This document shows positions 1-29,198 of a DNA stretch of 64,000 nt, piece after piece. A model generated the notes under the pieces. That model searched no databases. It saw nothing but the letters and a program-made list of their open reading frames with translations, and was not told where the DNA came from. The stretch lies in assembly GCF_003991905.1 (NCBI RefSeq), contig NZ_RSCL01000015.1, positions 126,001 to 190,000 of the forward strand, in the 5' to 3' direction. The number at the start of each line of letters is the position of its first letter. Position 1 is the stretch's first letter. The translations under genes and the position numbers were made by a program. This DNA is from Dulcicalothrix desertica PCC 7102 (GTDB lineage: Bacteria > Cyanobacteriota > Cyanobacteriia > Cyanobacteriales > Nostocaceae).

Positions 1-1051
1 CACTTGTGCCTGTGCCATGCCCTTCAAAATAACTAACTGTTTCAATTCCAAAACCTGCTCGATGATATGTGCGTTTTAAAGCTAACATTTGTCCTTCAAC
101 TTCAGGACGGGTAATGCCACCGCTACCATCCGAAGATACACCCCAACCACGAATAATGGCATAAATTCGATGCGAATGGGCAATCGCATCTTCATACCGC
201 ATCAAAACTACACAACCGCAACCCTCACCAGGAAAAAAGCCTTCAGACCGGGTATCATAAACGCGCATTTCTGACTCTGCTAAGGCGCCTGCTTTCGCAA
301 ACCCGACCAATTCAAATGGGTCTATGCTCAAATCTACACCACCAGCAATTGCTACATCTATATCCCCTGCAACCAGGGCACTAGCGGCGTTAGTAACTGC
401 TAACAGCGAAGAACTACAAGCTCCGTCAATAGTATAGCCGCCACCTTTGAGATTAAAATGATTGCAAATACGTCCAGCAATTGTATTAGATAAGTTACCT
501 GCTAAAGTTTCTTCACCAATTATTGGAAACGGTGCTTTATATTTTGCTTCTAAATTATTTAGAAATTCCCAACGTTTCTCTGGCAAACAGTTTTGCTCCG
601 CAAGGGCAGCTTCTACTACTCGGCGCACATAAGGCCAACGCAAGCGCATTGTATTAGCTCTAGAAAATTCCCCTGTTAGCGTGTTGCCTAACAATACAGC
701 AGTTGTATCTCGTGGTAAACCCTCACCTCCAGAAAATCCAGCATCTGCTAATGCCAATTCAGCGACATCCAACGCTAGCCAATGTGCCAAATCTGCGGCG
801 CGAAATGTGTTGCCAGCAACCCGAAAAGCTACTCTGTCAAATTCATAACCTTCAATTAAAGCAGCTTCCGTAGTATAAGTACAATCAAGAGCATTACGGT
901 CAGCAGACATATAATCTGCTAAGTTCAAACGTTCTGGTGGTATTTGCCTGAATGACCGACGCTGGGCGAGTACATTTGACCATAAATCTATCGGTGAGGC
1001 AGCATCTGGATAACGGCAAGCCATGCCAACAATTGCTATTGCAAATGTCAT
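1..1051 (-). CDS. Enediyne-type iterative type I polyketide synthase, N-terminal ketosynthase part (runs off left edge)
   Basis: The frame is open from an ATG at 1051 to the window edge, giving about 350 residues of a beta-ketoacyl synthase that would condense malonyl units into a polyene. The start reads MTFAIAIVGMACRYPDA. The active-site Cys lies in DGACSSS (about residue 212) and the first catalytic His in EGHGTGTS (about residue 345). Long stretches such as LTGEFSRANTMRLRWPYVRR and LSNTIAGRICNHF match what I know of PKSE ketosynthases (SgcE/CalE8 type) rather than modular or heterocyst-glycolipid PKSs. It starts 3 bp after the UnbU stop with GAGAGG upstream, so it is the last visible gene of an E3-E4-E5-E operon. 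AT, ACP, KR, DH and PPTase domains should lie outside the window. Family call is firm; that the product is a true enediyne is inference. Confidence 0.92.
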   Translation of the reverse strand, partial: MTFAIAIVGMACRYPDAASPIDLWSNVLAQRRSFRQIPPERLNLADYMSADRNALDCTYTTEAALIEGYEFDRVAFRVAGNTFRAADLAHWLALDVAELALADAGFSGGEGLPRDTTAVLLGNTLTGEFSRANTMRLRWPYVRRVVEAALAEQNCLPEKRWEFLNNLEAKYKAPFPIIGEETLAGNLSNTIAGRICNHFNLKGGGYTIDGACSSSLLAVTNAASALVAGDIDVAIAGGVDLSIDPFELVGFAKAGALAESEMRVYDTRSEGFFPGEGCGCVVLMRYEDAIAHSHRIYAIIRGWGVSSDGSGGITRPEVEGQMLALKRTYHRAGFGIETVSYFEGHGTGTS

Positions 1052-1054
1052 TAT

Positions 1055-2011
1055 TTATACCTCTCTAATTGTTTTGGTTGCTGGTACTAAAACCTTTGTA
1101 AATGCCACATAGTCAGCTATTGCTTGGGCGTAAAAGCTCAGTCCTCGAAATATACAGACAATTGTCAGAGCAAAGAAAAACCCAAACACGATGTGATTGA
1201 CCATTAGTAGCCCATACACAATAGCCACTGATAAGCCAAATATCGCTTGATTTAATGGTCTGCTTGGCGTTGTACCTGGGTCTGTCACCATATAAAAGGT
1301 GAACAACACAAACGCTACACCCGTCATCGGTACAAATCCAGCTATCATAGGTGTTCCAAATATCAAACTTCTCAATAATGCTTGTAAGACAAAGCCACCT
1401 AGCCAACCTGCAATTAGGGAAAGTTTTCCAGTGAAGCGAGTATTGAGAAATGTGCCACTAATTACAATTAGCCCCGGTAAAATCCAATCTCCTGCACCGC
1501 TAAGGTTTTCTGTAAATTGGTAAGGAGGAGCAATACCAACCCAAGGAAACATTAACAGTGTGACTGTGATGCCAAAGTTGGAGGGGTTGAGAAAATGCCG
1601 CTGTTCGTTACCCAACGGTGCGCGAAAGATAGCTTTTGAGGCGATAGCGACTGCACTGGCAAAAGCGATAGGTAATAGACGCTCGTTTGCATACAGCAGC
1701 ATAGCAACTGCCAAAGCTGTAATGTGTGCGGATAATAGAAAATTGACAAAACGCCTCAGTCCACCAATGAACACAGGTTGGCGCCCATTAACCCATGCAT
1801 CAATCAGTTCGAGCAGAATTTCCATACTATAGGCAGTCGCTAAGGCAATTAAAGGCTGTGCCCAAGATTGCTCAAAGCCTAAAACCGTATGTCCTAAAAT
1901 ATTCAAAACTGTAATTGCTACAGCAAAACGCTGCAATCCTGCTAAACGATTTGCTTTGTGTATGTTAAAAGTGCTTATCACGTCTTCATACCTCTGTGCT
2001 ATTACCAACAT
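1055..2011 (-). CDS. unbU: UnbU/E5-type enediyne cassette membrane protein (RnfD-like)
   Basis: A 318-residue polytopic protein with about eight to ten hydrophobic segments. The N-terminal region RFAVAITVLNILGHTVLGFE and the later TGVAFVLFTFYMVTDPGTTP are typical of the UnbU/E5 family, which resembles the RnfD/NqrB membrane subunits and is found beside enediyne PKSs. The biochemical role is not established; proposals include transport or redox work at the membrane. The ATG at 2011 overlaps the end of unbV by 26 bp. A GTG at 1981 with AGAGG about 8 nt upstream is an equally plausible start, because the family homology begins only around residue 20. It is translationally linked to the PKS gene, 3 bp downstream. 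Confidence 0.88.
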   Translation of the reverse strand: MLVIAQRYEDVISTFNIHKANRLAGLQRFAVAITVLNILGHTVLGFEQSWAQPLIALATAYSMEILLELIDAWVNGRQPVFIGGLRRFVNFLLSAHITALAVAMLLYANERLLPIAFASAVAIASKAIFRAPLGNEQRHFLNPSNFGITVTLLMFPWVGIAPPYQFTENLSGAGDWILPGLIVISGTFLNTRFTGKLSLIAGWLGGFVLQALLRSLIFGTPMIAGFVPMTGVAFVLFTFYMVTDPGTTPSRPLNQAIFGLSVAIVYGLLMVNHIVFGFFFALTIVCIFRGLSFYAQAIADYVAFTKVLVPATKTIREV

Positions 2012-3917
2012 TTTTTTCGTTCAGTAGTACCGTATGCCAACCAGATGATAAAAGTCGTGTTGACTCATGTACCCGACCAGATGAATCTCGCCATTGTATG
2101 TCAATTGGTACTTGCGTATTAGGATTTAAATCACCCAGTCCGAACAAAATTTCTGAACTGCGGGCGCCAGAATGACCATTACCACCATCTACTTGTGCCA
2201 CAAGTTTTCTACCATCTGGAAGGTGTACAGTTGCATTAGCTCCAATAGCTGGGCGCCCAGTAACATGTTCTAAATTCCCAGCCACAGGTAGTAGCAACTT
2301 GAGTCCTAAAAATGTTCCTAACTTAGAACTTTCATTTCGATAGAAAACTGATGAATCCCACTGATTCGCCACAGCAAAATCCAAATCGCCATCACCATCT
2401 ACATCGGCAGTGGCAATTCCACGAGTAACCTGGATTGTGTCCATCCCTAATTCCTTAGCAAAGTCATAATAACGACCATCATTTGCACGCACAAAGAATG
2501 GGTTGTGTCCATGACCACTCAAGTCGTCACCAGTTTGTAAACGAAACCAACTATGGGGGTTGCTCAGAAGTTCATCATTCCCCATTGCCAATTCGTGTAA
2601 CTCAGGCCATCTGTTAATATTACCTTTGGTAAAACCTGTTGCTTGTAGTGCTTCTAAAACTCCATCATTGTCAAAATCACCAAATTTCGTCTCCCAACCC
2701 CAGCTACTGCGCGATAGACCGAGACTCTCGCTACGGTCAATATAAGGTGCAACACCCCGACGCATTTGCTCAAACTTGCCTGTGCTAGTAAAGAGAAAAT
2801 GACTTTCTTCCAAAGAATATTCACCAGCAATATTACTGACATAAATATCAAGCAAACCATCGCCATTTACATCACCGAAGTCCACACCCATACCCTTAAA
2901 GGAGTCGTGTCCAAGAACCTTTGAATTGGGTGTTGTCAGGGTTTTCTTACCTTCCAAAAGTGCAAAGTTCAGCTTACCAGGCTTTGAGCGGTTGTGCAGT
3001 AATCGATCTGGCCCAAAATCGTTAGCAAAATAAATTTCTGGAAGCAGGTCACCATCTAAATCTGCTGCACCCACAGCTAGCGTCCAAGCGTTTGCAATTT
3101 GTTCATTTAAAACTTCTTTCGCCTCCTGAAACTGCACTTTTGGTTTATTGCCCATAGTTGCATTTTTCCAGAGTAAAAGTCGATTTCGACCACCATTGTA
3201 AGCGCGAGTCATTGAATGTTGCATTGACTCTACACCTGTGGCACTTGCATTTAAAACTTCGGCATTGTCAGGAAAGTAGTTACCAATAATCAAGTCGGTG
3301 TGACCATCACCATCTAAGTCAGAAAAAGTTGCAGCGTTTGTATACCACCGTTCCTGTTCTGTTACTATCTCTTGCTGTACATATATAGTTGATTCTAGTT
3401 TCACAGAAGATGCTGTTTTCAAGAAGGCAATGGGAGTACGTCCCCAGTAGTAGACAAGGATATCAATCAACCCATCTTCATTTAAGTCTCCAGGCAGGCA
3501 ACCCATCGGCGCCATCGCGGTATCTCTATATAAACTTGCAGATGGTTCCAGTACAAAAGGTTGGTATCGAGCCGTTGTTCCAGGTACTGGTGCTATATTT
3601 ACTTGATTAGTTCGCGTATCTACGTAGCAAACATCGTTAGGCAAACCATCTCCGTCAAGGTCGTTTAATCCCACAGAAGCACCAACAGCGGATATCCATG
3701 CTGAGTGTCTTTCCATACTAGGATGGACTGAACGCGAAAATCGAAGCGTTCCTGTTAACTCTGGTAAAGGTAAGGGAGTAAAGCTAAAGTGGGAAGCTAT
3801 TGTGGCTCGTTCGTTTGCAGATAATGTTGGAAGGCGGGTAAACCAGAATAAACATATAATCAAGGCTAATGCTACAAGGCGCCTGGTATTTTGGCGCCAA
3901 AAATCAGCTAGAAACAT
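1986..3917 (-). CDS. unbV: UnbV/E4-type FG-GAP repeat + ASPIC/UnbV domain protein
   Basis: About 643 residues. The N-terminus has a positively charged stretch and a hydrophobic segment (LVALALIICLFWF), so it is probably exported or membrane-anchored. At least seven Ca-binding-like FG-GAP/VCBS loops follow (for example DLDGDGLPND, DLNEDGLIDI, DLDGDGHTDL, DVNGDGLLDI, DVDGDGDLDF), consistent with a beta-propeller. The last ~100 residues (from about FLGLKLLLP to GWHTVLL) form the ASPIC/UnbV domain. I chose the ATG at 3917 because GAGG lies 8 nt upstream; an upstream TTG at 3941 would overlap unbL. This family is one of the conserved partners of enediyne PKS genes; its exact role is unknown. Confidence 0.9.
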   Translation of the reverse strand: MFLADFWRQNTRRLVALALIICLFWFTRLPTLSANERATIASHFSFTPLPLPELTGTLRFSRSVHPSMERHSAWISAVGASVGLNDLDGDGLPNDVCYVDTRTNQVNIAPVPGTTARYQPFVLEPSASLYRDTAMAPMGCLPGDLNEDGLIDILVYYWGRTPIAFLKTASSVKLESTIYVQQEIVTEQERWYTNAATFSDLDGDGHTDLIIGNYFPDNAEVLNASATGVESMQHSMTRAYNGGRNRLLLWKNATMGNKPKVQFQEAKEVLNEQIANAWTLAVGAADLDGDLLPEIYFANDFGPDRLLHNRSKPGKLNFALLEGKKTLTTPNSKVLGHDSFKGMGVDFGDVNGDGLLDIYVSNIAGEYSLEESHFLFTSTGKFEQMRRGVAPYIDRSESLGLSRSSWGWETKFGDFDNDGVLEALQATGFTKGNINRWPELHELAMGNDELLSNPHSWFRLQTGDDLSGHGHNPFFVRANDGRYYDFAKELGMDTIQVTRGIATADVDGDGDLDFAVANQWDSSVFYRNESSKLGTFLGLKLLLPVAGNLEHVTGRPAIGANATVHLPDGRKLVAQVDGGNGHSGARSSEILFGLGDLNPNTQVPIDIQWRDSSGRVHESTRLLSSGWHTVLLNEKNVGNSTEV

Positions 3918-3927
3918 TATTAATACC

Positions 3928-5025
3928 TCATACCGCTGCAAATTTTTTCTGAATTCGCTGTCGCCATACCTCGTAAACTGTTTCTATACCATCAATTGGT
4001 AAATTTTTTAAAGCAATATCTGTAATTTGAGAAGCAGCCTCAGCGGACATTTTGCACAAAACTTGGCATGTCATTTCAGTGTGTGTTTCGGAGTTGCCCG
4101 CTAAAGAACGTGCCTTAGCAGCAAAAGCGGCCCCCTGAGCTAAGTGAGGACAATAGATATCCGCTGCCAAAAGTAAAGCTTCTTCTTCGGCACAATCTAC
4201 ACCACCAGCATAAGTACAGGCAAGACCAACACCGCTCCAGAGGTCTGCTTGTCTGCGGTCGTCAAAACTGCGAATTGTAACCGAGATACGATTTACGTCA
4301 GCACCATCCACAAACCAAAGACTACGCCCTAAACCCTGGTCAAAAACTCTGCGGGCATAACCAGTAATTTCACGAGGAATTATTTGCTGTCTCACATAGC
4401 GTGAAGCATTGAAATAACCCTGATGAAAACCATACCCATCAATTGTTAACCAGCCAAATAAGGGGTGAATATTTCGGAGTTTTGAGTTTTGAATTTCTAA
4501 ATTATTTGTGTTTTTTGTCACTTCTTTGTTGAGTTGAGCTAGATAACGGTCAACGCTCAAAGGAATTCTAGCTAGCGCCCAACCAATACCTACATACACC
4601 ATATAAACATGAGATGCTGCCCCAATTGTTAGAAACGTCTCAATGCGATGTTTCCAAGGTGTAAAGTAATCTAACAGCGCAAGACCCATTGCGGCGCCTT
4701 CAAAAGCAAACCCACGTAACTCTGTTTCAACATTGTTTAGCTTCCATACAAGCGTTTCTAGATTATCTATAGCTATTGCTGTATGGTAGCCATGCAAAAA
4801 CGTATTACCAATATTTTCTAATCTTTGTTGTACTTCAATATCTTTACTATAAAATCCACGTTTAGCGAAAGTTACCTCTTCACAAGAAATAGTGAATAAG
4901 TACTGACGCAGATTTTTACATAAAGGGGTGAGAACAGAGTTGTTATGCTCGGAGAATACTTTTGTTTTAAAACTTGAGTCTGGATTATTTGTACGGTTAC
5001 ATAATCCCCTGATAATTTGTAACAT
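3928..5025 (-). CDS. unbL: UnbL/E3-type DUF1702 protein of the enediyne cassette
   Basis: 365 residues. The family signature is clear from about residue 55 onward: RGFAFEGAAMGLALLDYFTP, HVYMVYVGIGWALAR, DGYGFHQGYFNASRYVR, GYARRVFDQGLGRSLWFVDG, ADLWSGVGLACTYAGG and HLAQGAAFAAKARSLAGN. This is DUF1702, the E3/UnbL member of the minimal enediyne cassette. No enzymatic function is established for the family. The first ~50 residues are not conserved, so an internal start is possible. It is the first gene of the minus-strand operon E3-E4-E5-PKS, the same relative order as in known actinomycete enediyne clusters such as C-1027. The promoter must lie in the 819-bp gap upstream. Confidence 0.9.
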   Translation of the reverse strand: MLQIIRGLCNRTNNPDSSFKTKVFSEHNNSVLTPLCKNLRQYLFTISCEEVTFAKRGFYSKDIEVQQRLENIGNTFLHGYHTAIAIDNLETLVWKLNNVETELRGFAFEGAAMGLALLDYFTPWKHRIETFLTIGAASHVYMVYVGIGWALARIPLSVDRYLAQLNKEVTKNTNNLEIQNSKLRNIHPLFGWLTIDGYGFHQGYFNASRYVRQQIIPREITGYARRVFDQGLGRSLWFVDGADVNRISVTIRSFDDRRQADLWSGVGLACTYAGGVDCAEEEALLLAADIYCPHLAQGAAFAAKARSLAGNSETHTEMTCQVLCKMSAEAASQITDIALKNLPIDGIETVYEVWRQRIQKKFAAV

Positions 5026-5844: not shown

Positions 5845-7173
5845 ATGGCAATTGACCTTTGCAATAAGTCAGAACTTAGACGTAATGGAAACGCAGCAAC
5901 AGCAAAGAATATTCTTGGCTCAACGTTGAATAACGTTTCATTACCCCTTATTCATCCACAGCAACAGGAAGTTCTGGAACTTGCCTATCAAACAACTCTT
6001 GGGTATACCGAACCTCACTACTTCGTTGGAGACCCCGCAGCTTGGGCAAGTGATTTTGGCTATGCCCTAGACCGAATATCAATGCGTCTTGACTCCCGCC
6101 CCAGCGATGTACTACGACAAGATGCGCTATCTCATCCCGACCCTGTAATGCGTGAACAGGCACTATACGAGTATGTTGACCGTAATGAGTGCGATGCTAT
6201 TGAATTACTTTGCCAGATTGTTGAACACGATAGTGACCGTCAAGTTCGTTGGGATGCACTTTGGGCAATTGAGAAACTCGGCGGTCAAAATGCAGTTCAA
6301 GCATTGCAGAAATTTTGCTTCGATGCCGATCCAGAAATTGCAGAATGGTCGAGTTTATTTATTTCAGAGCTACAAACAGGTGACCCAACCTTTGATAATC
6401 GTAACTGTCGATATACACCTGGACGTACCTTTGACGAAACCATTTTTTTGCTAATTCATTGCGACCTTTATATCCGTTTAGATCAGAAAAATCAACATTG
6501 GGGCAAGTTATCGCTTGCGCCTCAAGGATTGGCTCGCGTCTATGGTCAAGCTCATGCTTGTCCCAATGTAGAAACCAGAGAGCGACAGTTAGTGATTGCA
6601 AAAGCAATCTCTGGACTACATGCAGATGGCAGCTTGCATATTGATAATTATCTATTTAGGGGCTTTACAGAAAGAACGCGCGCAGACAGAGGAAATTTTT
6701 ACTTTGAGTCACAAGTTCAACGTCCTTTTTACATCTCCGGTAGAGCCGACGACCCATCTATGGGATTCCGAGATGCTTTAATTGGCTTTGCACGTCAAGG
6801 ATGCTGGTATTTGGACAATCGGTTTAAAATCCGAGAAGCAGACGCAATTCGATACGTGCGGGGTCGTTTCCAAGGTTGGGGTTACACCAATCTCGAAAAA
6901 TTAGCTGGTAAATCTTTAGAAGAAATTATCCAGCCAGGTAATGGCATTCTCTCAACTCTACACGACCCAGTTACAGGCCCTCTCACCAACGTATTTATTT
7001 CAGGTACATTCAAAGGCAAACTGAACGACTGGGACAGAGACGGCTATATTGACCTTAATTCGCGCGATGTCTATGCAACAACAGAAGGAGAAGTCGATAC
7101 CAACATGGATGGTATTGCCGATGTTCCTGGTTTGTCCTGTTGTCCAGGTAAACCTACTTTGCATTCCGTTTAA
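5845..7173 (+). CDS. HEAT-repeat protein with C-terminal EF-hand-like loops, biosynthetic cluster
   Basis: 442 residues with no signal peptide. Residues ~90-175 look like HEAT-type helical repeats (HPDPVMREQALYEYVDR, DRQVRWDALWAIEKLGG, DPEIAEWSSLFI). The middle part is unlike anything I recognise (RPFYISGRADDPSMGFRDAL, FARQGCWYLDNRFK). Near the C-terminus are two Asp-rich loops, DWDRDGYIDLNSRD and DTNMDGIADV, reminiscent of EF-hand or dockerin Ca-binding loops and of the loops in the neighbouring UnbV. It is the first gene of the plus-strand operon, facing the enediyne cassette, which suggests a cluster-specific role such as an assembly or accessory protein. Function unknown. Confidence 0.8.
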   Translation: MAIDLCNKSELRRNGNAATAKNILGSTLNNVSLPLIHPQQQEVLELAYQTTLGYTEPHYFVGDPAAWASDFGYALDRISMRLDSRPSDVLRQDALSHPDPVMREQALYEYVDRNECDAIELLCQIVEHDSDRQVRWDALWAIEKLGGQNAVQALQKFCFDADPEIAEWSSLFISELQTGDPTFDNRNCRYTPGRTFDETIFLLIHCDLYIRLDQKNQHWGKLSLAPQGLARVYGQAHACPNVETRERQLVIAKAISGLHADGSLHIDNYLFRGFTERTRADRGNFYFESQVQRPFYISGRADDPSMGFRDALIGFARQGCWYLDNRFKIREADAIRYVRGRFQGWGYTNLEKLAGKSLEEIIQPGNGILSTLHDPVTGPLTNVFISGTFKGKLNDWDRDGYIDLNSRDVYATTEGEVDTNMDGIADVPGLSCCPGKPTLHSV

Positions 7174-7214: not shown

Positions 7215-7886
7215 ATGACTACTGTAGAAGCTTTTAATCATCAAAACAAAAAATTAGCTTGGGGACCTCAAATTGATTTATCAGGGTTAGATTACTTATA
7301 TCCACCCCAAAACGTTAAGCCATACACACCTCCCCCTCCAGGAGTTGATAATTTAGGAATTTCATCCACTGACAGTTTTTTAGTGCCTAATGTAGGTGAG
7401 TTTACAGTTAACTTTGAAGGGTATGTTCGGGTAGCTCGTTCGCAACCAACCAGCAACGAATGGAATACTTCAGATGTTTTCACAAATTTAATTGACATGT
7501 GTATGCGTGGAGAAGAATCGGGAATTGGAGAAATAATTGTCACCCTCAATCCTGATGTTCTATCTACAGGGCAACTGCGAACACCTCACGCCGACTTAGC
7601 TTGTGAAAAGCCATCAAAAGCTTGTCGAATGGCTGTTGGAGCATTGTTTAAAATGCCACTACTAAATCTAACCCTCTTCAATAAAGAACCCATCGAACTA
7701 ACAATCGATGATGTGCGTATGATTCCACCTGCTGGTAACCCTGGAGAAGGACGGATATACCAAATTTTGCCTTTATTTCACCGGGAAAATCCAGACGGTC
7801 TTCCAGCCGCATATCTTACAAGTTTACAATTTAGGATGGGTCACTACATCACAGAAGCTAAAATCCAGGGTATTTTGCAAGGTTAA
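7215..7886 (+). CDS. Conserved protein of unknown function in the biosynthetic operon (possibly DUF6073-like)
   Basis: 223 residues, soluble, with no signal peptide. A proline-rich N-terminus (YTPPPPGVDNLGIS) is followed by a predicted beta-rich body: TDSFLVPNVGEFTVNFEGYV, GIGEIIVTLNPDVLSTGQ, LFNKEPIELTIDDVRMIPP and HRENPDGLPAAYLTSLQFRM. The layout recalls the DUF6073 group described in actinomycetes, but I hold that match only weakly. Its stop codon overlaps the next start by one base (TAATG), so it is translationally coupled to the SRPBCC gene. Confidence 0.75.
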   Translation: MTTVEAFNHQNKKLAWGPQIDLSGLDYLYPPQNVKPYTPPPPGVDNLGISSTDSFLVPNVGEFTVNFEGYVRVARSQPTSNEWNTSDVFTNLIDMCMRGEESGIGEIIVTLNPDVLSTGQLRTPHADLACEKPSKACRMAVGALFKMPLLNLTLFNKEPIELTIDDVRMIPPAGNPGEGRIYQILPLFHRENPDGLPAAYLTSLQFRMGHYITEAKIQGILQG

Positions 7887-8884
7887 TGGTAATGTCTAAT
7901 ATATCTAACCTAAATTTGCCTAACTTTTCTAGTCTTGAAAACCTAGAAAAGAAGTTGCCGCCTTTACATGCTGCTAAAGCACAGACAATCATTCGTGACC
8001 GCTGGGAACAATTAGTAACCAATATTACGCTGTCGGCACCTGTAGAGGATACGTGGCAGGCATTGACAGACCCCAATCTACTAAAGTACTGGCTTGCCGT
8101 TTGTCATGGTTCTCTAGACAAAGTTCATACTGATTGTGTATTAGACTTTGAAGATGGTGAGTTTTTTTTGTGTCAGCCTCTGGTTGTGCAACCTCCCTCT
8201 CAACTTCAATATCTCTGGCGCTGGCTAGGTATTGGTCAGGCAACAACTGTAACCTGGCAGTTAGAACCAACTGAACAGGGAACTAAGGTAACTGTGATTG
8301 AGGAAGCATTAAATCCGCCTTGGGACTGGCAAACCTGGAATGGAGAAGGTTGGACTGGTATTCTAGAGCAGCTAGCTGCTTATCTACGAACTAGAATTGA
8401 GTGGCGTTGGCCTTGGCGCCGTATGGGTCCCTATGTACAAATTGAACTACCAGCACCCGTATATTTAGCTTGGGATCAACTGTTCAACCCTGCGAGCTTA
8501 AAGTATTGGCTACTAGTTAGCCAAGGGGAAATGGCGCCAACACAGTCATTAAATATTCTTATGGGTGATGCTAGTGGCGCCATCGAAATGACAGTGCATG
8601 AAATAATTCAGCCTGGACAATCAGCCCCATCATTTTTACCCTACGCGAACTTCTCTTTAAATAGACCAGCTTGGCAAAATTCCGTGGCTGGAAGATTTTG
8701 GCTCGAACCTGCAGGATGGGGACGCAGCTTATTCCAAGTCTTTAACTATGGTTGGGAAAGCTTACCTGCAGGATTACAACTCTCAGAACGAAAAATATTA
8801 ACTCGTTTTTGGGCAGATACAATGCAACGTGCCAGCCTAATGTTTACACCTTCATCCATCCCTGCTGGACCCCATAATTGGTAA
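7886..8884 (+). CDS. Tandem SRPBCC (AHSA1/START-like) domain protein, candidate self-protection or ligand-binding protein
   Basis: 332 residues containing two copies of an AHSA1-type SRPBCC fold, at about residues 45-165 and 178-325. Each begins with a hydrophobic beta strand followed by an x-DPxxLKYWL-type helix: ITLSAPVEDTWQALTDPNLL with LKYWLAV, then IELPAPVYLAWDQLFNPASL with LKYWLLV. SRPBCC proteins bind hydrophobic ligands or act as cyclases. The calicheamicin resistance protein CalC has this fold and is cleaved by the activated enediyne in place of DNA. That parallel, plus the location, makes a protective role possible, but a cyclase or carrier role is equally open. The start overlaps the preceding stop by 1 nt; a second ATG lies two codons further in. 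Confidence 0.85.
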   Translation: MVMSNISNLNLPNFSSLENLEKKLPPLHAAKAQTIIRDRWEQLVTNITLSAPVEDTWQALTDPNLLKYWLAVCHGSLDKVHTDCVLDFEDGEFFLCQPLVVQPPSQLQYLWRWLGIGQATTVTWQLEPTEQGTKVTVIEEALNPPWDWQTWNGEGWTGILEQLAAYLRTRIEWRWPWRRMGPYVQIELPAPVYLAWDQLFNPASLKYWLLVSQGEMAPTQSLNILMGDASGAIEMTVHEIIQPGQSAPSFLPYANFSLNRPAWQNSVAGRFWLEPAGWGRSLFQVFNYGWESLPAGLQLSERKILTRFWADTMQRASLMFTPSSIPAGPHNW

Positions 8885-8908: not shown

Positions 8909-9346
8909 ATGTCAACACCAGAGGAACTAGAAGAAAAAAAAATTGTTGTTCGTCGTTGGGTTGAGCAGGTTTTTAATAACAAAAATTTGGCTTGTGTAGA
9001 TGAACTCAAGATAGCTAACTACGTTGACTGGACACCATTTCCGGGACAAGGCCCAGCACTAAAAGGATTTAAACCTGTTTTGCAACTTTTCTTAACAGCT
9101 TTTCCTGATTTCCATTACACTATTGAAGATGAGCTAGCTGAAGGTGATTTAGTTGTGTTTCGGGGCACTTGGAAAGGAACTCATCAAAGGGAATTTATGG
9201 GAATTCCTCCAACTGGACGCGAAGTTACTGGGCAACGAATTGATAATTTTCGAGTTATTGGTGACAAAATGGTGGAACACTGGGGTTGCGGTAACGAATT
9301 AGACGTTATGCAGCTTATCGGCGCCATTCCATCAGAACAGGAGTAA
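8909..9346 (+). CDS. SnoaL-like ester cyclase / NTF2-fold protein
   Basis: 145 residues, full-length for the SnoaL family. AGGAGA lies about 7 nt before the ATG. Typical features are KKIVVRRWVEQVFNNKN, FLTAFPDFHYTIEDELAEGD, the EFMGIPPTGREV motif and VEHWGCGNELDVMQLIGAIP at the C-terminus. SnoaL proteins close or isomerise polyketide rings in anthracycline pathways, but the fold is also used for other chemistry. Lying in the cluster next to a second copy, it probably acts on the polyketide or a derived intermediate. Confidence 0.87.
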   Translation: MSTPEELEEKKIVVRRWVEQVFNNKNLACVDELKIANYVDWTPFPGQGPALKGFKPVLQLFLTAFPDFHYTIEDELAEGDLVVFRGTWKGTHQREFMGIPPTGREVTGQRIDNFRVIGDKMVEHWGCGNELDVMQLIGAIPSEQE

Positions 9347-9397
9347 AATATAAAACGTAAAATATCCAACAAAATCTAACCAAAGGAGAATGACTTG

Positions 9398-9871
9398 ATG
9401 TCATTAGAAAAAAATAAAGCTGTTGTTAATCGTTTTTTGTCAGAGGTTTTCAATCAAAGAAATCTCACTGTAATTGATGAAATTGTTGATGCAAATGCAA
9501 TAGACCATTATAAACAAGGCTTGACTTTATGGTTGATTTTGGGTGCTTTCCCAGACTTTCGCATCAGCATTAAAACTATGATTGCCGAAGGTGATAAAGT
9601 CGCAGTTATCTCAACCTTATATGGAACGCATCAAGGTGTACTAATGGGTATTCCGCCTACTCATAAACCTGTATCAATTGTAAAGGCTGATATTTTTCGC
9701 ATTGCTAACGGTAAAATTGTAGAGATTTGGCAAAACGGTGACTACATTGGTTTAATGCAGCAAATAGGAGCTATTGATGTTCAACGTTTGACTTATCATT
9801 TACAAGTAGCTCCTGAAATCTCTAATAAGACGCAGCCATCGGTTGTCGCAACACAGGTGAAAGGCGCCTAA
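9398..9871 (+). CDS. Second SnoaL-like ester cyclase / NTF2-fold protein
   Basis: About 157 residues from the ATG at 9398, with GGAG 9 nt upstream; a TTG three bases earlier is an alternative. It parallels the preceding gene: NKAVVNRFLSEVFNQRN, LGAFPDFRISIKTMIAEGDK, LMGIPPTHKPV and IWQNGDYIGLMQQIGAI. The two are diverged duplicates rather than recent copies. This copy has a C-terminal extension of about 30 residues, and its central region (DANAIDHYKQGLTLWLIL) is shortened, so the two may not share a substrate. Confidence 0.86.
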   Translation: MSLEKNKAVVNRFLSEVFNQRNLTVIDEIVDANAIDHYKQGLTLWLILGAFPDFRISIKTMIAEGDKVAVISTLYGTHQGVLMGIPPTHKPVSIVKADIFRIANGKIVEIWQNGDYIGLMQQIGAIDVQRLTYHLQVAPEISNKTQPSVVATQVKGA

Positions 9872-9896: not shown

Positions 9897-11447
9897 ATGT
9901 TAGTTCAACCAGGTGAGCCAATATTAGAAATTCATGAGATTCAAGGTCATATTTTACCTGGCTTTAATAAAGATTTCCAAATACTGCTTTTCCTTGAAAT
10001 TGTCGAAGTCTGTCAGATTAAGGATTGGTTGCGCCAAATTCACCCGCGCATCGTCAGCTTAGAAACAGTATTAAATCATCAACAATTAACTAGTAATGAT
10101 TCTCCAAATCATCTTTCTAGTTGTGAACCTAGCATTTGGATAAATATTGCTTTTTCATTTAATGGACTAAGCAAATTGACTAACGATGCTGATTTATTTA
10201 TTGATGCAGCATTTAAAGATGGTTTACATAACCGCTCAGAACTATTAGGAGACCCAACTCATCGAGATATAGAGGGTAATTGCCACAACTGGGTTATTGG
10301 TAGTTCTGGTAACATTCCAGACATTATCTTAATTATTGCTGCTGATGATAATAACAATCTAGTTCAGGCAGTTAACCAAATAGAAGCAAGCTTGAACAGT
10401 GGGTTTAAAGTAATCTTTAAGCAAGCTGCTGCGGTTTTACTTTCACCTTTTAAGGGTCATGAACATTTTGGTTTTCGTGACTGCATTTCTCAACCATGTG
10501 TTAGAGGAAGAATTTCCAACCAGGCAAATGATTTTCTTACACCCCGCTTTAATCTTGATAATGCACACCAAGAAAAGATCACCCAAGATTTAATTTGGCC
10601 TGGAGAATTTATTTTTGGATACCCTCGTCAAAGTCCAATTGATAAACTTTTACCTGGAGCAATTGCGGAAGCTGGACCAAGTTGGGCGCCTAACGGTTCA
10701 TTTCTTGTTTTTCGGAGGTTACGCCAAGATGTAGAGGCTTTTCAAACTTTTACTAAATCTGTTGCAAAGCAACTAAGGGAGAAAAATCTGACTCTTGAGG
10801 ATATAACTTCCGAAAAATTGGCAGCAAAACTTATGGGACGTTGGTTTAGTGGTACGCCAATTATTCATGCACCCAACAGTGATAACCCTGAGATTGCTCA
10901 AGAAAGTTGGCTTAATAATCACTTTGTATATGAAAATTCTAGTCAATCTGCTGTCGATTCTGCTGTTGATGATGTCCACTTGTTAGGTGATACACTAGGT
11001 ATAATTTGCCCTCACGCGGCTCACATCCGCAAAGCTTTCCCGCGCGATACAAAAACTCTGAGTGGTAGCGAAGCTGATACTCAAACTCATCGACTACTAC
11101 GCCGAGGAATACCATTTGGACAACTTTTCTGTGATGATACAGAGCGAGGTTTACTATTTCTTGCTTATCAAACCTCTATAGAACGACAATTTGAATTTAT
11201 TACTACTAATTGGATCAACAACCCAAACTTTCCTGATAGTGGCGCCGGACACGATCCAATTGTTGGTCAAAATAATAATCTTGGAGAAAACCGCGTTCGG
11301 AGTTGGAATTTACCAGTTAAAAACCCTGATGGGGGTGTAACAAAAATTTCCGTAAAAATTCCCATTGATTGGGTTATTCCCACAGGTGGAGGCTATTTCT
11401 TTGCTCCCTCTATTAGTGCTTTAAATTACTTGAGTAAAAATCATTAA
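9897..11447 (+). CDS. DyP-type heme peroxidase
   Basis: 516 residues. A very strong ribosome-binding site (AGGAGGGAGG) precedes the ATG. Family marks: IQGHILPGFNKDFQ at the N-terminus; GFRDCISQP, the GxxDG motif with the catalytic Asp kept but the last Gly replaced by Cys; the heme-ligand His region CPHAAHIRKAFPRD; and the distal Arg region HRLLRRGIPFG followed by RGLLFLAYQTSIERQFEFI. DyP enzymes oxidise dyes, phenols and other bulky substrates with H2O2. No Tat signal is visible, so it is probably cytoplasmic and a tailoring oxidant for the cluster product. Confidence 0.92.
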   Translation: MLVQPGEPILEIHEIQGHILPGFNKDFQILLFLEIVEVCQIKDWLRQIHPRIVSLETVLNHQQLTSNDSPNHLSSCEPSIWINIAFSFNGLSKLTNDADLFIDAAFKDGLHNRSELLGDPTHRDIEGNCHNWVIGSSGNIPDIILIIAADDNNNLVQAVNQIEASLNSGFKVIFKQAAAVLLSPFKGHEHFGFRDCISQPCVRGRISNQANDFLTPRFNLDNAHQEKITQDLIWPGEFIFGYPRQSPIDKLLPGAIAEAGPSWAPNGSFLVFRRLRQDVEAFQTFTKSVAKQLREKNLTLEDITSEKLAAKLMGRWFSGTPIIHAPNSDNPEIAQESWLNNHFVYENSSQSAVDSAVDDVHLLGDTLGIICPHAAHIRKAFPRDTKTLSGSEADTQTHRLLRRGIPFGQLFCDDTERGLLFLAYQTSIERQFEFITTNWINNPNFPDSGAGHDPIVGQNNNLGENRVRSWNLPVKNPDGGVTKISVKIPIDWVIPTGGGYFFAPSISALNYLSKNH

Positions 11448-11482: not shown

Positions 11483-12454
11483 ATGAAACCTACCTCTGTT
11501 AGCTTAATTCGAGCAAATTCCTACGACCAAGACTCATTATATCTTGCCTTAGAAAATCTGTTGGCGCCATTGGGAGGAATAGCTGCTTTTGTAAAACCGG
11601 GTGATCGCGTTCTCTTAAAACCCAATTTGTTAACAGCTTCTAAGCCCGAAAAAGAATGTATCACTCGAAAAGAATTAGTACGTAACATAGCCTATATGAT
11701 TAAAGCAGTAGGCGGTAAACCTTTTCTTGGGGACAGCCCAACGTTTAATACTGCAAAGGGAGTTGCCAAAGCAGCAGGTTACTTTCATATTGCAAAAGAA
11801 CTAGACATGCCAATAGTTGAACTGCACAGTAAACGTTATCAAACAGAGAATAAGGAATTTCAACATTTACTACTTAGTAAAGAGGCAATGGAAGCTGATG
11901 TAGTAATTAATTTACCTAAAGTTAAATCTCATTCGCAGGTAACGTTAACACTAGGTGTAAAAAATTTGTTTGGTTGTGTACCTGGTAATACAAAAGCTTG
12001 GTGGCATATGGAAATTGGCACTTCGAGCATTCACTTTGCCAAAATGCTGGTAGAAACTGCACGAACCATCAGTCCAGACTTAACAATTATTGATGGCATT
12101 ATTGGACACCAAGGAAATGGGCCGAGTGATGGGGAACCCCGTTATTTGGGTTTACTAGGAGCTTCTCAAAATGTATTTGCCCTAGACCGAGTTATCGTAG
12201 AAATTCTAAATGTAGACCCAAACTTAATTCCTACCATAGTCGCAGCACAACAATTAGAACTTTGTCCTGAGCTTGCAACTATTAATTTCCCTTATTTACG
12301 ACCAGAAGAATTAAAAGTTTTTGACTGGCAGTTACCCAGCAAATACATCCCACTCGACTTTGGTTTACCAAATATAGTTAGGTCTACTCTCAAATCTTTA
12401 TTTTTACGATTAATGAAAGAACGTATTTATTCTAGTACAGAAAAAATTAATTGA
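11483..12454 (+). CDS. DUF362 family protein
   Basis: 323 residues. Matches the DUF362 pattern: VKPGDRVLLKPNLL near residue 40, LGDSPTFNTAKGVAKAAGY, the region DVVINLPKVKSHSQVTLTLG followed by VKNLFGCVPGNTKAWWH, and IDGIIGHQGNGPSDGEPRYL. Many DUF362 proteins carry a C-terminal ferredoxin-like CxxCxxC cluster; none is seen here. The biochemical role of the family is not settled. It sits 35 bp after the DyP gene and 13 bp before the next gene, so it belongs to the same operon. Confidence 0.88.
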   Translation: MKPTSVSLIRANSYDQDSLYLALENLLAPLGGIAAFVKPGDRVLLKPNLLTASKPEKECITRKELVRNIAYMIKAVGGKPFLGDSPTFNTAKGVAKAAGYFHIAKELDMPIVELHSKRYQTENKEFQHLLLSKEAMEADVVINLPKVKSHSQVTLTLGVKNLFGCVPGNTKAWWHMEIGTSSIHFAKMLVETARTISPDLTIIDGIIGHQGNGPSDGEPRYLGLLGASQNVFALDRVIVEILNVDPNLIPTIVAAQQLELCPELATINFPYLRPEELKVFDWQLPSKYIPLDFGLPNIVRSTLKSLFLRLMKERIYSSTEKIN

Positions 12455-13542: not shown

Positions 13543-16500
13543 ATGAACGAGGCTTTGGATATTTCGCAATTATACCCGACAGATATTTGTATTCATCAGT
13601 TATTTGAGGCTCAAGTAGTTAAGTCTCCTGAAGCAGTTGCAGCAATTTTTGGTTCAGAGCAACTCACTTATCGAGAGTTAAACCGTCGAGCTAATCAACT
13701 GGCACATTATCTCAAACGTTTAAACGTCGGTTCAGAAGTTCTCGTTGGTATTTGTCTGGAACGTTCTTTAGAAGCCTTAGTTAGTTTATTAGCTATTCTC
13801 AAGGCTGGTGGTGCCTATGTACCATTTGACCCAGCATATCCGTCAACGCGCCTTGCCTTCATGTTTCAAGATAGCCAAGTTCCGGTAATTTTGACTCTTC
13901 AACACTTAGTCAATAATTTTCCTAACAACACTCAAGCGCGCATAATTTGCTTGGACAATTGGGAGATAATTGCTCCAGAGTGCGAGCATAACCCCACGTC
14001 AGAGACAACCGCTGATAATATTGCTTACGTCATTTATACCTCTGGTTCCACTGGAACCCCCAAAGGTGTCCTAGGACTACATCGAGGTGTAATCAACCGT
14101 TTTTATTGGATGTGGAATCTATATCCCTTTGAGGTAGAGGAAGTATGTTGTCACAAAACTTCTCTCAGTTTTGTAGATTCTATCTGGGAAATTTTTGGCC
14201 CGTTGCTACAGGGGATACCGATAGTAATTATAACCGATGATGTCGTTAAAGACACTTATCAGCTAGTCCAAACCTTGTCAAAAAACCAAATTACGCGCAT
14301 TGTACTGGTTCCCTCTTTGCTACGCGCGATTGTTGATAGTACTGTTGATTTACAGCAACTTTACCGACTTAAGTATTGGCTTAGTAGTGGTGAAGTTCTC
14401 TCACTGGAATTAATGCAGCGCTTTCAACGACGAATGCCTGAAAGTGTACTGATAAACCTTTATGGTTCATCTGAGGTCGCAGCAGATGTAACTTATTTCG
14501 ATACAAGAGCCAACTCATCACAAATATCAGTTCCCATTGGGCGCCCTATTGCTAATACGCAAATTTATATTCTGGATACTGCACTGCAACCTGTTTCTGT
14601 TGGAGTTACGGGTGAATTGTATATAGGTGGTGCTGGTTTAGCCAGAGGTTATCTCAACCAACCTCAATTAAGCGCTGAGAAATTTATTCCCGATCCTTTT
14701 AACCAACCGGGTGCGCGTCTGTATAAAACTGGAGACTTGGGGCGTTATTTACCAAATGGCGATATCGAATTTATCGGGCGCCTTGACCATCAGGTGAAAA
14801 TACGGGGTTTCCGAATTGAGCTAGGAGAGATAGAAGCAGTTTTAAAACAACACCCAGCGGTGGAAGAGTCTGTAGTTATTGTTTGCGAGGAGCAACCTGA
14901 CAACAAATATTTAACCGCCTATGTAGTTACCAACCGTCAGTACCAAGAAGACCAAGAAGCAGTAATGCAATGGGATGTTGTTCATACTAAGCAATGGCAA
15001 AAAGTTTGGGATGAGATTTATAGTCAAACCCAACTACAACACGAGCCAACTTTTAATACTATTGGCTGGAACAGTAGCTACACAGGTTTACCAATTCCAG
15101 CAGTACAAATGCATGAGTGGGTAGAAGATACAGTTAAGCAGATTCTTGATTTAAAACCAACGCGCGTACTAGAAATTGGTTGTGGAACAGGGTTATTGTT
15201 GTTTCAAGTTGCCCCGCACTGCACGTCCTATTGGGGAACTGACTTTTCAAAAGTGACCCTTAACTATTTGCGACAACAATTAAACCAACTAGAAAATCCT
15301 TTATCTCAAGTTACTTTGCTGCAAAAGACAGCAGATGATTTTGAAGGAATTGAAGCAGGTAGTTTTGACGCGATAATTTTAAACTCTGTTATCCAACAAT
15401 TTCCGAGTGTTGAATATTTGTTGCGGGTGTTAGAACAAGCTGTTAATACAGTAGCACCTGGAGGATTTATCTTTGTGGGAGACGTGCGTAGTCTTCCACT
15501 CCTAAAAGCCTTCCACGTTTCTGTAATGCTGCATCACGCACCTGAGCACCTCTCAACAGAACGGATGCAACAGCGGATGCTTCTTCAGATAGATCAGGAA
15601 GAAGAACTGATTATTGAGCCAGCATTTTTTATTGCTTTAAAAGCACATTTCCCACAAATTAGCCATGTAGAAATTCGACCAAAGCGCGGTCATTACCACA
15701 ACGAATTAACTCGATTTCGTTATCAGGTAGTTATTCATGTAGGGAAGCAGAATAATTCTGTAAATCCTGTTTACTTAGATTGGCAGCGTGAGGGCTTAAA
15801 TTTGTCTACAGTTCTCCAATTATTAGAAACTAAATTAGAAACTAAATTAGAAACCAAACCAGAAATTGTGTGCATTACACGTGTGCCCAATGCTCGCCTC
15901 TGGCAAGAAATGAAAACTCTAGAGTTGCTAGCAAGTTCTAGTCCTCCTGCGACTGTAGGAGAACTGCGTCAAATCCTCAGTCAAATTTCTGGAGATTGGG
16001 TAGACCCAGAACATTTTTGGGCATTAAGCCATGACTTACCTTATGCTATCAGCATCGATTGGTCGAACCCAGGTGCTGATGGCTGTTACAATGTAGTTTT
16101 CCGACGAACCGAAACTAAAGCACAGAAACAGGAAACAATTATTACCTCCTTATTAATACCAACATTTGACCCCAAACCTTGGAAAAGCTATGCAAACAAT
16201 CCTCTACGAGGAAAATTTATCCAAGGTTTAGTACCACAGTTGCGTAGCTTCCTGCATGAAAGACTACCCGAACACATGGTACCTACCACATATATGTTGC
16301 AAAATTCCTTACCACTGGCGCCTAATGGTAAAGTAGATCGTCGTGCGCTTCCTTTTCCTATCAAGACTCGACCTCAATTAGTAGAGACAACCTTTGTAGC
16401 ACCTGGCAATCCTACAGAAGAAATATTAGCAAGTATCTGGATGAAAGTTTTAGGACTCGAAGAAATTGGTACTCACGATAACTTTTTTGAACTAGGGGGA

Positions 16501-18019: not shown

Positions 18020-18625
18020 ATGGATGCAGTTCGTTTAGAAGAATCACAGATTGACGAAGCTACCATAACTCTTTATCAAGCCTTTGATAACGACCCAATG
18101 CTTCGCTACATCACTTTAGAAAATAATCTGGCAAGGGCAGATATAATAAAATGCTTTTGCCAAGCTATTTTGCGCTATACCAAATCATATAACACCATCT
18201 ATACAACCTCAAAAGACTTGAAAGGCGTTGCAATTTGGATTCCACCAGGTCAGTTTCCGATTAATTTTGTTAGACTTTTACAAGCAGGTCTTTATAAACT
18301 ACCTTTCAAACTTGGTTGGAGCGGATTTAATCGATGGGTTTCCCTGTTTACATTAGATTCATACCATAAAAGTGATATGTCTCAACCTCACTGGTATTTA
18401 TTAATACTGGGAGTAATACCTACCTATCAGGGACAAGGGATTGGAAGTTCGCTATTGCAACCAATCCTCAAGCAAGCAGATGCAGAAAAACTCCCTTGCT
18501 ACTTAGAGACTTTTACTACAGCATCTGTTCGCTTTTTCCAAAAGCATGGTTTTAAAGTTTTGAAAACAGACCAATTGCCGGGTAACGCTTTGTCTTTTTG
18601 GACAATGAAAAGAGAACCGATATGA
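18020..18625 (+). CDS. GNAT-family N-acetyltransferase
   Basis: 201 residues, with AAGGGAGG before the ATG. The acetyl-CoA loop is visible as LGVIPTYQGQGIGSSLLQPI at about residues 135-155, followed by the usual C-terminal part SVRFFQKHGFKVLKTDQLPG. The N-terminal half (LYQAFDNDPMLRYI, GVAIWIPPGQFP) is typical of GNATs often found beside cyanobacterial NRPS/PKS genes. It could acylate the product for tailoring or for self-protection. It lies 31 bp after the NRPS gene, in the same operon. Confidence 0.88.
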   Translation: MDAVRLEESQIDEATITLYQAFDNDPMLRYITLENNLARADIIKCFCQAILRYTKSYNTIYTTSKDLKGVAIWIPPGQFPINFVRLLQAGLYKLPFKLGWSGFNRWVSLFTLDSYHKSDMSQPHWYLLILGVIPTYQGQGIGSSLLQPILKQADAEKLPCYLETFTTASVRFFQKHGFKVLKTDQLPGNALSFWTMKREPI

Positions 18626-18673
18626 TAAAACATAAAACATTAGATATAAGCTTGAAAAATGGAGGAGAAAAAA

Positions 18674-19165
18674 GTGGATTGGTTAAGTTTACTTAAAGGA
18701 ACAGCAGTAGGTGGTGTTTTACTGTTTCTGTGGAATGGACTCACACAAAGCTTTACTCCTTGGGGGATTAAAAGCATAAAAGAACTTGAAGACCAAGCGA
18801 CCATCACAGAAACAATTGCGCGCGCTTCAACCAATGGTGTGTATTATCTGAAAGACAAGGTTACTGCTTTTATTGCAGTTAAGCCTGAAGCATATTACTC
18901 TATGCCACGTTACTTTACCATTGAATTTGTGACAGAGGTGCTAGTTGGTGGTGTATTAACAGCAATTTTGCTGTTAACCAGCACAGAATCTATCGTGACA
19001 CGGTTAATAATTATTGGACTAGTAGCACTGGCTGGTATCTTTAGCATAGACCTTCAGTACTGGAACTGGTGGGGCTTCTCAAGTATTTTTACATTTGGCA
19101 TTGCCATCAATCGCCTTGTTGGCTATTTGCTTACTGGCTTTGTTCTGATAAAATTTATACTTTGA
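18674..19165 (+). CDS. Small integral membrane protein, last gene of the plus-strand operon
   Basis: About 163 residues from a GTG at 18674. The GTG has GGAGGAG 6 nt upstream, whereas the ATG at 18659 lies in front of that site and lacks one of its own. Hydrophobic segments: GTAVGGVLLFLWNGL near the N-terminus, then VLVGGVLTAILLLT, LIIIGLVALAGIFSI and VGYLLTGFVLIKFIL. A soluble loop of about 60 residues (IKELEDQATITETIARAST) follows the first segment. No family recognised; an envelope or transport accessory role is possible. It ends 25 bp from the convergent DUF3052-like gene. Confidence 0.7.
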   Translation: MDWLSLLKGTAVGGVLLFLWNGLTQSFTPWGIKSIKELEDQATITETIARASTNGVYYLKDKVTAFIAVKPEAYYSMPRYFTIEFVTEVLVGGVLTAILLLTSTESIVTRLIIIGLVALAGIFSIDLQYWNWWGFSSIFTFGIAINRLVGYLLTGFVLIKFIL

Positions 19166-19190: not shown

Positions 19191-19586
19191 CTATTTGACA
19201 ACCAGTTCATATGGTCTAAAACGCAATGCTGACCAAACATGATTAATTGATATCTGAGCTACTCCCTTTAAACCTGCTTTATCAATCACATCCCAACCCA
19301 CATCTCGATTAATATCCGTTATCATTTTTGAACTTTGTTTCGGATAGGCAATCCATAATATGCCATCGTACTTTAAAGCACTGATTGCTTTTGAAGCAAA
19401 ACTTTCTAACTCTGAAATATTTTTGACAAATATATGAATAAAGTCAAATTGACCTTCTAGTTCCTTTGCCAACTCTACACCTTCTGGCAATATTAGTTGT
19501 TCCATATATCCAGGTGGGGAATTAATAACAATCATTCTCTGCCCGGATTTTATACGTAATTTTTTAACTAATGGATTATCTACCAT
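19191..19586 (-). CDS. DUF3052-like small protein
   Basis: About 131 residues from the ATG at 19586, which has AAAAAGGA close upstream; an ATG at 19604 would add six residues. The sequence LVKKLRIKSGQRMIVINSPP, LILPEGVELAKELEGQFDFI and ISALKYDGILWIAYPKQSS resembles the DUF3052 group: a Rossmann-like fold that looks like a methyltransferase remnant without a SAM motif. Function unknown. It is the distal gene of the three-gene minus-strand set 21470-19191. Confidence 0.72.
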   Translation of the reverse strand: MVDNPLVKKLRIKSGQRMIVINSPPGYMEQLILPEGVELAKELEGQFDFIHIFVKNISELESFASKAISALKYDGILWIAYPKQSSKMITDINRDVGWDVIDKAGLKGVAQISINHVWSALRFRPYELVVK

Positions 19587-19614
19587 ATTTTCCTTTTTAC
19601 ACATCCTTTTTGTA

Positions 19615-29195: not shown

Positions 29196-29198
29196 AAA

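Follow-up and report, generated by a model that had tools for sequence, protein, structure and literature searches.

Introduction

Does a cyanobacterium carry the genes for an enediyne, and if so, of which kind? The question is raised by a 64,000-nucleotide stretch of the 11.4 Mb genome of Dulcicalothrix desertica PCC 7102 (contig NZ_RSCL01000015.1, positions 126,001 to 190,000; G000:C15:126001-190000 in our labels), referred to here as the window. Enediynes are DNA-cutting natural products that are, to our knowledge, known almost only from actinobacteria. An earlier note on the first 5 kb of the window had recognized a minimal cassette of E3, E4, E5 and an enediyne polyketide synthase (PKSE), and had proposed an enediyne-like or at least PKSE-derived polyene product. 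The cassette proves to be part of a cluster of 20 genes. Judging by its gene content, this cluster belongs to the 10-membered, dynemicin-type enediyne family, a reading to which we give a probability of about 0.82.

Enediyne-type ketosynthases (KSs) and polyketide synthases (PKSs) in Cyanobacteria have already been published (PMC4247773, 2014; PMC10308959, 2023). The accessible portions of these two papers treat KS domains or PKS genes and make no mention of DynF, DynU16 or a dynemicin-type set, and no report of such an accessory set in cyanobacteria was found in the open-licence literature. What is new here is a cyanobacterial cluster predicted to specify a 10-membered enediyne and equipped with new tailoring genes.

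The warhead cassette

The four cassette genes lie on the minus strand as the earlier note had placed them (Table 1), and their order, E3-E4-E5-PKSE, equals that of the C-1027 plasmid, which bears out the parallel drawn with actinomycete clusters. In Pfam, E3 matches DUF1702 (E 2.5e-115) and E4 matches FG-GAP_3 (2.4e-28) and UnbV_ASPIC (6.9e-10). E5 reaches 25.0 bits against PF03116, under the 27.7 cut-off, yet is 52% identical to the C-1027 RnfD-type protein (274 residues). E4 could start at an upstream TTG or at an ATG 10 bp past the E3 stop, and the tight spacing that had been described (10 bp, an overlap and 3 bp) holds provided that the ATG is used. The KS retains its Cys and His residues, with Cys212, His345 and His385 aligning with those of SgcE and of the PKSE from the Micromonospora genome G523. 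The resemblance is not a matter of chance, given identities to the C-1027 counterparts of 46% for the PKSE and 44% for E4 over nearly full length.

Extension to the left, into the flanking locus L007 (where negative window coordinates lie), yields the complete PKSE, with KS, acyltransferase (AT), acyl carrier protein (ACP), ketoreductase (KR), dehydratase (DH) and phosphopantetheinyl transferase (PPTase) domains in that order and with intact catalytic motifs. Pfam finds KS, AT, KR and DH, and the ACP weakly (E 0.0023); the ACP call, and that of the PPTase, which has no Pfam hit, come from aligning the protein to the PKSEs of C-1027 and G523. Of 13 positions examined, 12 are identical in the three PKSEs, and at the thirteenth, in the KR nucleotide motif, G523 has Ala in place of Gly. 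The E10-type thioesterase that had been expected in this direction follows the PKSE. Its best PDB match is 4i4j_A, 'ACP-polyene thioesterase' (E 7e-48), and the solved structures nearest to it are 4i4j, CalE7 and one other thioesterase, followed closely by DynE7. E3, E4, E5 and the thioesterase all adjoin the PKSE.

Phylogeny of the ketosynthase

A quick KS tree comprised 48 of the 53 rows that had passed a length and E-value filter; this filter left out the KSs of several fetched PKS loci and those of L116-L118, G382 and G278. Its 34 PKSE rows (D. desertica, C-1027, three dynemicin-type Micromonospora, the cyanobacteria G698 and G551, and 27 further PKSE loci from the matches listed) stand on one side of a branch with an SH-aLRT of 98, so that the KS is indeed placed with the PKSEs. 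On the opposite side are the genome's own PfaA-like KS rows (L114, L120 and L121, the last two with a long-branch warning) and other PKSs; the tree held no proven heterocyst-glycolipid KS. PfaA is the best NCBIfam match of the KS fragment, far under its cut-off (184 vs 1010 bits), and a separate PfaA-like locus exists in the genome. A polyunsaturated fatty acid (PUFA) or heterocyst-glycolipid synthase might for these reasons be mistaken for a PKSE, but this is contradicted by the branch at 98 and by the domain order, and the C-terminal PPTase motif, the E10-type thioesterase and E3-E5 speak against it as well, leaving it an extremely remote prospect. The PUFA-type synthase was dropped as a candidate on the KS tree.

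In a careful tree of 36 rows, D. desertica lies within ten cyanobacterial rows (support 96/93) and adjoins G698 (90/85). This cyanobacterial set is separate from the C-1027 group and from the actinobacterial dynemicin-type group, outside which the D. desertica KS therefore falls. Aphanocapsa is outside the ten, and the Calothrix KS groups with Okeania.

Partner genes shared with dynemicin-type regions

The partners of the cassette had been called unfamiliar. That description fits a block comprising a nonribosomal peptide synthetase (NRPS), a DyP-type peroxidase, a DUF362 protein and a GNAT acetyltransferase, which is common to D. desertica and G698 only. It does not fit the HEAT-repeat protein, the DynF and DynU16 homologues, the AraC regulator, the ABC1 kinase and a His-rich protein of 188 amino acids (P188), all of which are common to dynemicin-type regions. 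It is because of these shared partners that 'enediyne-like' can be sharpened to '10-membered, dynemicin-type'.

The reference regions come from a PF19550 (DUF6073) profile search of 151 Micromonospora-genus genomes. Four matched, three of them strongly (G523, G469 and G425), and 80 kb around each of the three was compared. Over the 102 residues compared, their DynF proteins are 100%, 90% and 81% identical to 6ubl, respectively, so that G523 is probably the dynemicin producer's species; G469 and G425 are called dynemicin-type from their gene content. Eleven D. desertica gene families are present in all three regions: PKSE (39-41% identity), E3 (32-35%), E4 (46-48%), E5 (52-58%), thioesterase (45-53%), AraC (35-36%), HEAT (66-68%), DynF (57-59%), DynU16 (45-49%), ABC1 kinase (32-37%) and P188 (49-54%). 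In G523 and G469, HEAT, DynF and DynU16 are contiguous and ordered as in D. desertica; in G425 a gap of ~2.5 kb separates DynF from DynU16. The SnoaL-like proteins are less widely shared, each matching in two of the three regions (protein 1 at 30-32%, in one case across 69 residues only; protein 2 at 30-34%).

The DynF homologue matches 6ubl_A (E 3.7e-72, 246 bits) and is predicted to bind a hydrophobic intermediate in its beta-barrel; in the literature on DynF, heptaene binding tested directly was negative. The DynU16 homologue matches 6v04_A over residues 38-311 (E 4.8e-16) and CalU16 more weakly (E 4e-4). According to the accessible part of PMC8488855, 6v04 is DynU16, and homologues of it occur in anthraquinone-fused enediyne (AFE) pathways. 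By eye, the published RxxFxDGDFF motif is only approximated, as FEDGEFF, and its Arg is absent. AraC- and AarF/ABC1/UbiB-family regulators are described as conserved in all five reported AFE clusters in the available portion of PMC9464397, which also describes iodine as essential for AFEs. Both classes, tnmR7 (AraC) and tnmR3 (ABC1/AarF/UbiB), are represented here, as compared with the Micromonospora regions rather than with tiancimycin sequences. No regulator of the HxlR (tnmR1) class was assigned among the 20 cluster genes, with no search aimed at HxlR having been made.

The dynemicin cluster of Micromonospora chersina and the AFE clusters thus share with D. desertica the PKSE, E3-E5, thioesterase, HEAT, DynF, DynU16, P188, AraC and ABC1 genes, and differ from it in their tailoring. 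Among the 20 genes, the part of the genome searched for oxygenases, neither Pfam nor matches to the dynemicin-type regions revealed a P450 or an FAD mono-oxygenase, and a further gene of the DynU16 type was not found. In their place are an NRPS with adenylation, methyltransferase, peptidyl carrier and condensation domains (A-MT-PCP-C), DyP, DUF362 and GNAT. The DyP peroxidase has no match in the three dynemicin-type regions, and 468 residues of the D. desertica NRPS are matched at 37% by an NRPS open reading frame (ORF) on the margin of the G425 region. Among the matches listed for this NRPS, five A-domain alignments are all to linear gramicidin synthase. Because AFE oxygenases were not found in the cluster, the label 'dynemicin-type enediyne' is used rather than 'AFE'.

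Comparison with the C-1027 cluster

C-1027 was represented by the Streptomyces globisporus plasmid SGLP1, read with its annotation, and 36 of the 40 proteins annotated in its first 50 kb (L134) were compared by BLASTP with all ORFs from window -36 kb to +64 kb. Of the C-1027 protein names used here, SgcE6 alone stands in the record; E2-E5 and E7-E9 follow common usage. Identities are 46% for the PKSE (over 99%), 52% for E5, 44% for E4, 37% for E3, 57% for E10 and 36% for AraC, so that the cassette proteins span 37-57% in the comparison with characterized clusters that the earlier note had called for. Further matches are to generic NRPS, carrier and oxidoreductase proteins only.

The two clusters have in common the E3-E4-E5-PKSE order, the thioesterase, the AraC regulator and a P188 homologue, and the PKSE is slightly nearer to that of C-1027 than to the dynemicin-type PKSEs. 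It could be argued from these likenesses that this is a 9-membered, C-1027-like cluster whose missing genes lie elsewhere in the genome. However, nothing homologous to E6, E7, E8, E9 or the C-1027 TIGR03084 gene was found between -36 and +64 kb, the part of the genome compared, and C-1027 E2 matches solely the single E3 of D. desertica, C-1027 having two DUF1702 genes where D. desertica has one. Conversely, HEAT, DynF and DynU16, present here, gave nothing when their profiles were run against 100 kb of the C-1027 plasmid. A 9-membered product is accordingly very unlikely, and this candidate was dropped for want of the characteristic C-1027 genes in the span compared.

A TauE/TSUP transporter occurs in 5 of 28 PKSE loci among those listed (L042:16556-17569 and four others). 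The C-1027 plasmid also carries one (L135:11473-12507), about 12 kb from E2 and 41% identical to that of L042.

Related clusters in other cyanobacteria

A full counterpart is found in a genome of another genus, G698, where a single cluster contains a homologue of every one of the 20 genes and 18 keep their order. Identities are 53-93% (P188, 73%), except for the ABC1 kinase at 38%. Since G698 carries all 20 genes as one cluster, and no gene beyond the cluster is shared with G698, generic matches aside, the limits in D. desertica were set at about window -6095, inside L007, and about 21470. The cluster thus covers 27.6 kb and reaches beyond the first 5 kb on both sides. Misassembly of the contig was dropped as an explanation, given that G698 repeats the gene content, with 18 of the 20 genes arranged alike.

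A different version is present in G551, with the cassette (E5 by tblastn), AraC, P188, HEAT, DynF and DynU16. It lacks DyP, DUF362 and GNAT and has other NRPS genes nearby. Its additional genes are related to dynemicin-type ORFs: there is one for an FAD mono-oxygenase (43-45%) and one for a methyltransferase (39-44%), along with genes for SnoaL proteins and for a pair of P450s, of which one is 39% identical to a G425 ORF. Other cyanobacterial PKSE loci are those of Richelia sinica FACHB-800, three Okeania, Calothrix sp. MO_167.B12, UBA11370, UBA11372 and Aphanocapsa lilacina. All eight have the PKSE, with E3-E5 and the thioesterase where the fetched stretch extends, and all but Aphanocapsa fall in the same KS group. 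They differ from D. desertica in that, within the fetched stretches, DynF and DynU16 are present in Calothrix only and DyP, DUF362 and the NRPS in none.

The distribution of these genes is patchy. Among the matches listed there are at least 27 PKSE loci besides D. desertica, and in the resulting 28, by counts uncorrected for contig ends, E4 was found in 21, E3 in 19, E5 in 19 and the thioesterase in 18. DUF6073 is present in 4 of the 28, including two distant copies (29-31% identical) in Chloroflexota, and P188 in 3, with a further weak match in L036. A sample of 386 genomes across the phylum has DUF1702 in eight (seven over the cut-off) and DUF6073 in one, D. desertica's own. In the family (n=217), DUF6073 occurs in 4 genomes, HEAT in 3, P188 in 7 and DUF1702 in 26, of which 8 score above 380 bits and the others at most 289. 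HEAT is found only alongside DynF and a high-scoring DUF1702 (3/3), and P188 alongside a high-scoring DUF1702 in 6/7, the seventh genome being 72% complete. None of the six other genomes of the same genus has DynF, HEAT, P188 or DUF1702.

The lower-scoring DUF1702 genes (mostly 200-290 bits; 19 of the 217 family genomes) point to a second kind of cyanobacterial locus. At the four loci where a PKS was sought, such genes lie near a large PKS (G191, L030-L031; G382, L024-L025; G278, L026; G097, L028-L029), with two or more DUF1702 copies in three and one in G097. The G191 PKS is KS-AT-ACP-ACP-KR-DH, and its neighbors include a pair of FAD proteins that resemble halogenases as well as an RPE65-type oxygenase. 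In the quick tree, no group stands nearer to the PKSEs than the KSs of G191 and G097 (SH-aLRT 98-99). In G143, an enediyne-type DUF1702 gene (L020:16874-17929; 418 bits) stands alone, the fetched 40 kb having nothing that matches PKSE, E4 or E5. Finally, 9 of the 28 listed PKSE loci, D. desertica not among them, encode a family of ~270 amino acids, several members of which have a CGPGxxWVNNC motif and a signal-like N-terminus (L022:12300-13100, L035:4950-5789, L040, L043 and L050, for example). In the loci inspected it lies between E4 and E5 or just ahead of E3; its PEP-CTERM matches are not significant (E 0.45-4.9).

Does the cluster make an enediyne?

All 20 ORFs are without internal stops. 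In 18 of the 20 gene pairs between D. desertica and G698, dN/dS (NG86) is 0.04-0.25, values that are rough because dS is high (0.66-3.95); the ratios for ABC1 and the thioesterase were not computable. A decayed or silent relic on a plasmid-like contig might be suspected from the ParA/ParB-like genes 7-11 kb to the right of the cluster and from the patchy distribution, with DynF in 0/6 same-genus genomes. The intact frames and low ratios argue against decay, and the G698 copy sits on an 11.6-Mb contig, which makes a relic improbable.

A more serious alternative is that the cassette has been kept to make a polyene or aromatic compound from the PKSE product, the pathway never reaching an enediyne and ending in a polyene-aminoacyl conjugate. 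No P450 or FAD mono-oxygenase was recognized by Pfam among the cluster genes, while G551 has both, and a heptaene is made in E. coli by PKSE and thioesterase alone (cited in PMC8725005). Richelia sinica (G078), moreover, has the cassette and P188 and no DynF. Against this, E3, E4, E5, DynF, DynU16 and HEAT are all under purifying selection, and inactivation of sgd15, the gene for a DynF orthologue, abolished sungeidine formation with no intermediate detected (PMC8725005). A polyene end product is on this evidence less likely than not, and the 10-membered, dynemicin-type assignment is preferred.

Several further points weigh against that assignment, along with the Richelia locus and the high dS already given. 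The missing oxygenases do so because dynemicin-type pathways use oxygenases, and no self-resistance gene or transporter was recognized in the cluster, where the sole hint of resistance or export is the 168-residue protein with three hydrophobic segments. Constraining the KSs of the four DynF-positive cyanobacteria and the three Micromonospora to one clade is rejected (p-AU 1.4e-9), as is a clade of the four cyanobacterial KSs alone (p-AU 7.4e-8). It follows that ring type is unreadable from the KS across phyla and that the history of the accessory genes is not simply that of the PKSE. The Calothrix locus (G569) has the cassette, AraC, DynF and DynU16, and no HEAT, P188 or ABC1 on its 52-kb contig. 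ABC1 and P188 are at the right end in D. desertica and at the left end in G698, around AraC, with P188 between AraC and the thioesterase, and the G698 ABC1 kinase may not be an orthologue. Two of the three reference regions owe their label to gene content, and calicheamicin clusters were not in the comparison, so that HEAT, DynF and DynU16 could mark all 10-membered enediynes or just the anthraquinone-fused ones.

Proposed pathway and a possible role for P188

By analogy with characterized systems, the PKSE and thioesterase would make a linear conjugated polyene. E3-E5 and P188, with DynF and DynU16 as soluble carriers or cyclases and with HEAT, would then convert it to a 10-membered core, and AraC and the ABC1 kinase would regulate the cluster. 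More speculatively, the NRPS, DyP, DUF362 and GNAT proteins may decorate the core in place of dynemicin's anthraquinone, giving an aminoacylated or oxidized enediyne. The chances are about even that an intact enediyne, or the cycloaromatized form of one, is present in the product.

P188 occurs in both 9- and 10-membered enediyne clusters, its C-1027 homologue (WQO_RS34010; HMM E 8.6e-79, BLASTP 49%) lying ~0.8 kb from E2. Nine aligned sequences conserve H47, E50, H51, E83, H86, H122, H123, E125, H126 and H159, and this His/Glu conservation hints at a possible metal site. A fold search was uninformative, and a crude hydropathy scan gave only one clear membrane segment; P188 is thus a putative membrane enzyme.

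How a linear polyene becomes a 10-membered enediyne is described as largely unsolved in PMC8725005 (2022) and in the accessible part of PMC8488855 (2021). The occurrence of the same gene set in another phylum without oxygenase tailoring narrows the core candidates to about nine genes, and the families shared with dynemicin may help show which genes build the core. HEAT, so well conserved across phyla (66-68%), and P188 are two uncharacterized candidate components. It may be, tentatively and with rather more doubt than confidence, that PKSE, E10, E3, E4, E5, HEAT, DynF, DynU16 and P188 form an old minimal set for the 10-membered core, that the core enzymes include P188, overlooked so far and perhaps acting as a metal-dependent oxidase in the membrane that forms the polyyne, and that in D. 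desertica the core carries a methylated amino acid activated by the NRPS instead of an anthraquinone. If true, this would add both a structural class and a phylum to the known enediynes. Cyanobacteria are indicated as a source of enediynes with new decoration.

Gene content and neighboring features

Table 1. Genes of the D. desertica cluster. Positions are window coordinates unless given in L007; percentages are amino acid identities.
Gene product	Position	Strand	Remarks
AraC regulator, 270 aa	L007:9905-10717	-	outside window, after thioesterase
E10-type thioesterase, 153 aa	L007:10739-11200	-	outside window, after PKSE
PKSE, 1954 aa	L007:11187-17051; 3' end about -4813	-	KS-AT-ACP-KR-DH-PPTase
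PKSE 5' part (KS fragment)	2..1051	-	
E5, UnbU-type, RnfD-like membrane protein	1055..2011	-	52% to C-1027; 5 hydrophobic segments
E4, UnbV-type, FG-GAP + ASPIC	1986..3941	-	44% to C-1027
E3, DUF1702	3928..5025	-	37% to C-1027
HEAT-repeat protein, dynemicin-type set	5845..7173	+	66-68% over nearly full length in three dynemicin-type regions
DynF homologue (DUF6073)	7215..7886	+	6ubl_A match; 57-59% in G523, G469 and G425
DynU16/CalU16 homologue, two START/Bet v1-like domains	7886..8884	+	6v04_A match
SnoaL-like protein 1	8909..9346	+	93% in G698
SnoaL-like protein 2	9395..9871	+	77% in G698
DyP-type peroxidase	9897..11447	+	70% in G698
DUF362 protein	11483..12454	+	77% in G698
Conserved protein without Pfam match, one hydrophobic segment	12468..13481	+	59% in G698
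NRPS, A-MT-PCP-C	13543..17988	+	71% in G698
GNAT acetyltransferase	18020..18625	+	74% in G698
Small putative membrane protein, 168 aa, 3 hydrophobic segments	18659..19165	+	71% in G698; MMPL match at E 0.067 only
Conserved small protein, no family assigned	19191..19604	-	76% in G698
ABC1/AarF/UbiB-family kinase, candidate TnmR3-type regulator	19615..20871	-	32-37% in dynemicin-type regions
P188, His-rich putative membrane protein, 188 aa	20904..21470	-	49-54% in three dynemicin-type regions

The 819-bp spacer between the divergent E3 and HEAT genes has 4 promoter-like matches vs 3.7 expected by shuffling, and one terminator-like hairpin vs 0.5 expected. A tRNA scan of the window found none. 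To the right of the cluster, the ParA/ParB-like genes occupy window 28419-32617, and the contig (C15, 290,899 bp) may be a plasmid, as the C-1027 record is. Farther along, at window 38567-39769, a single protein matches both CHAT and TIR domains.

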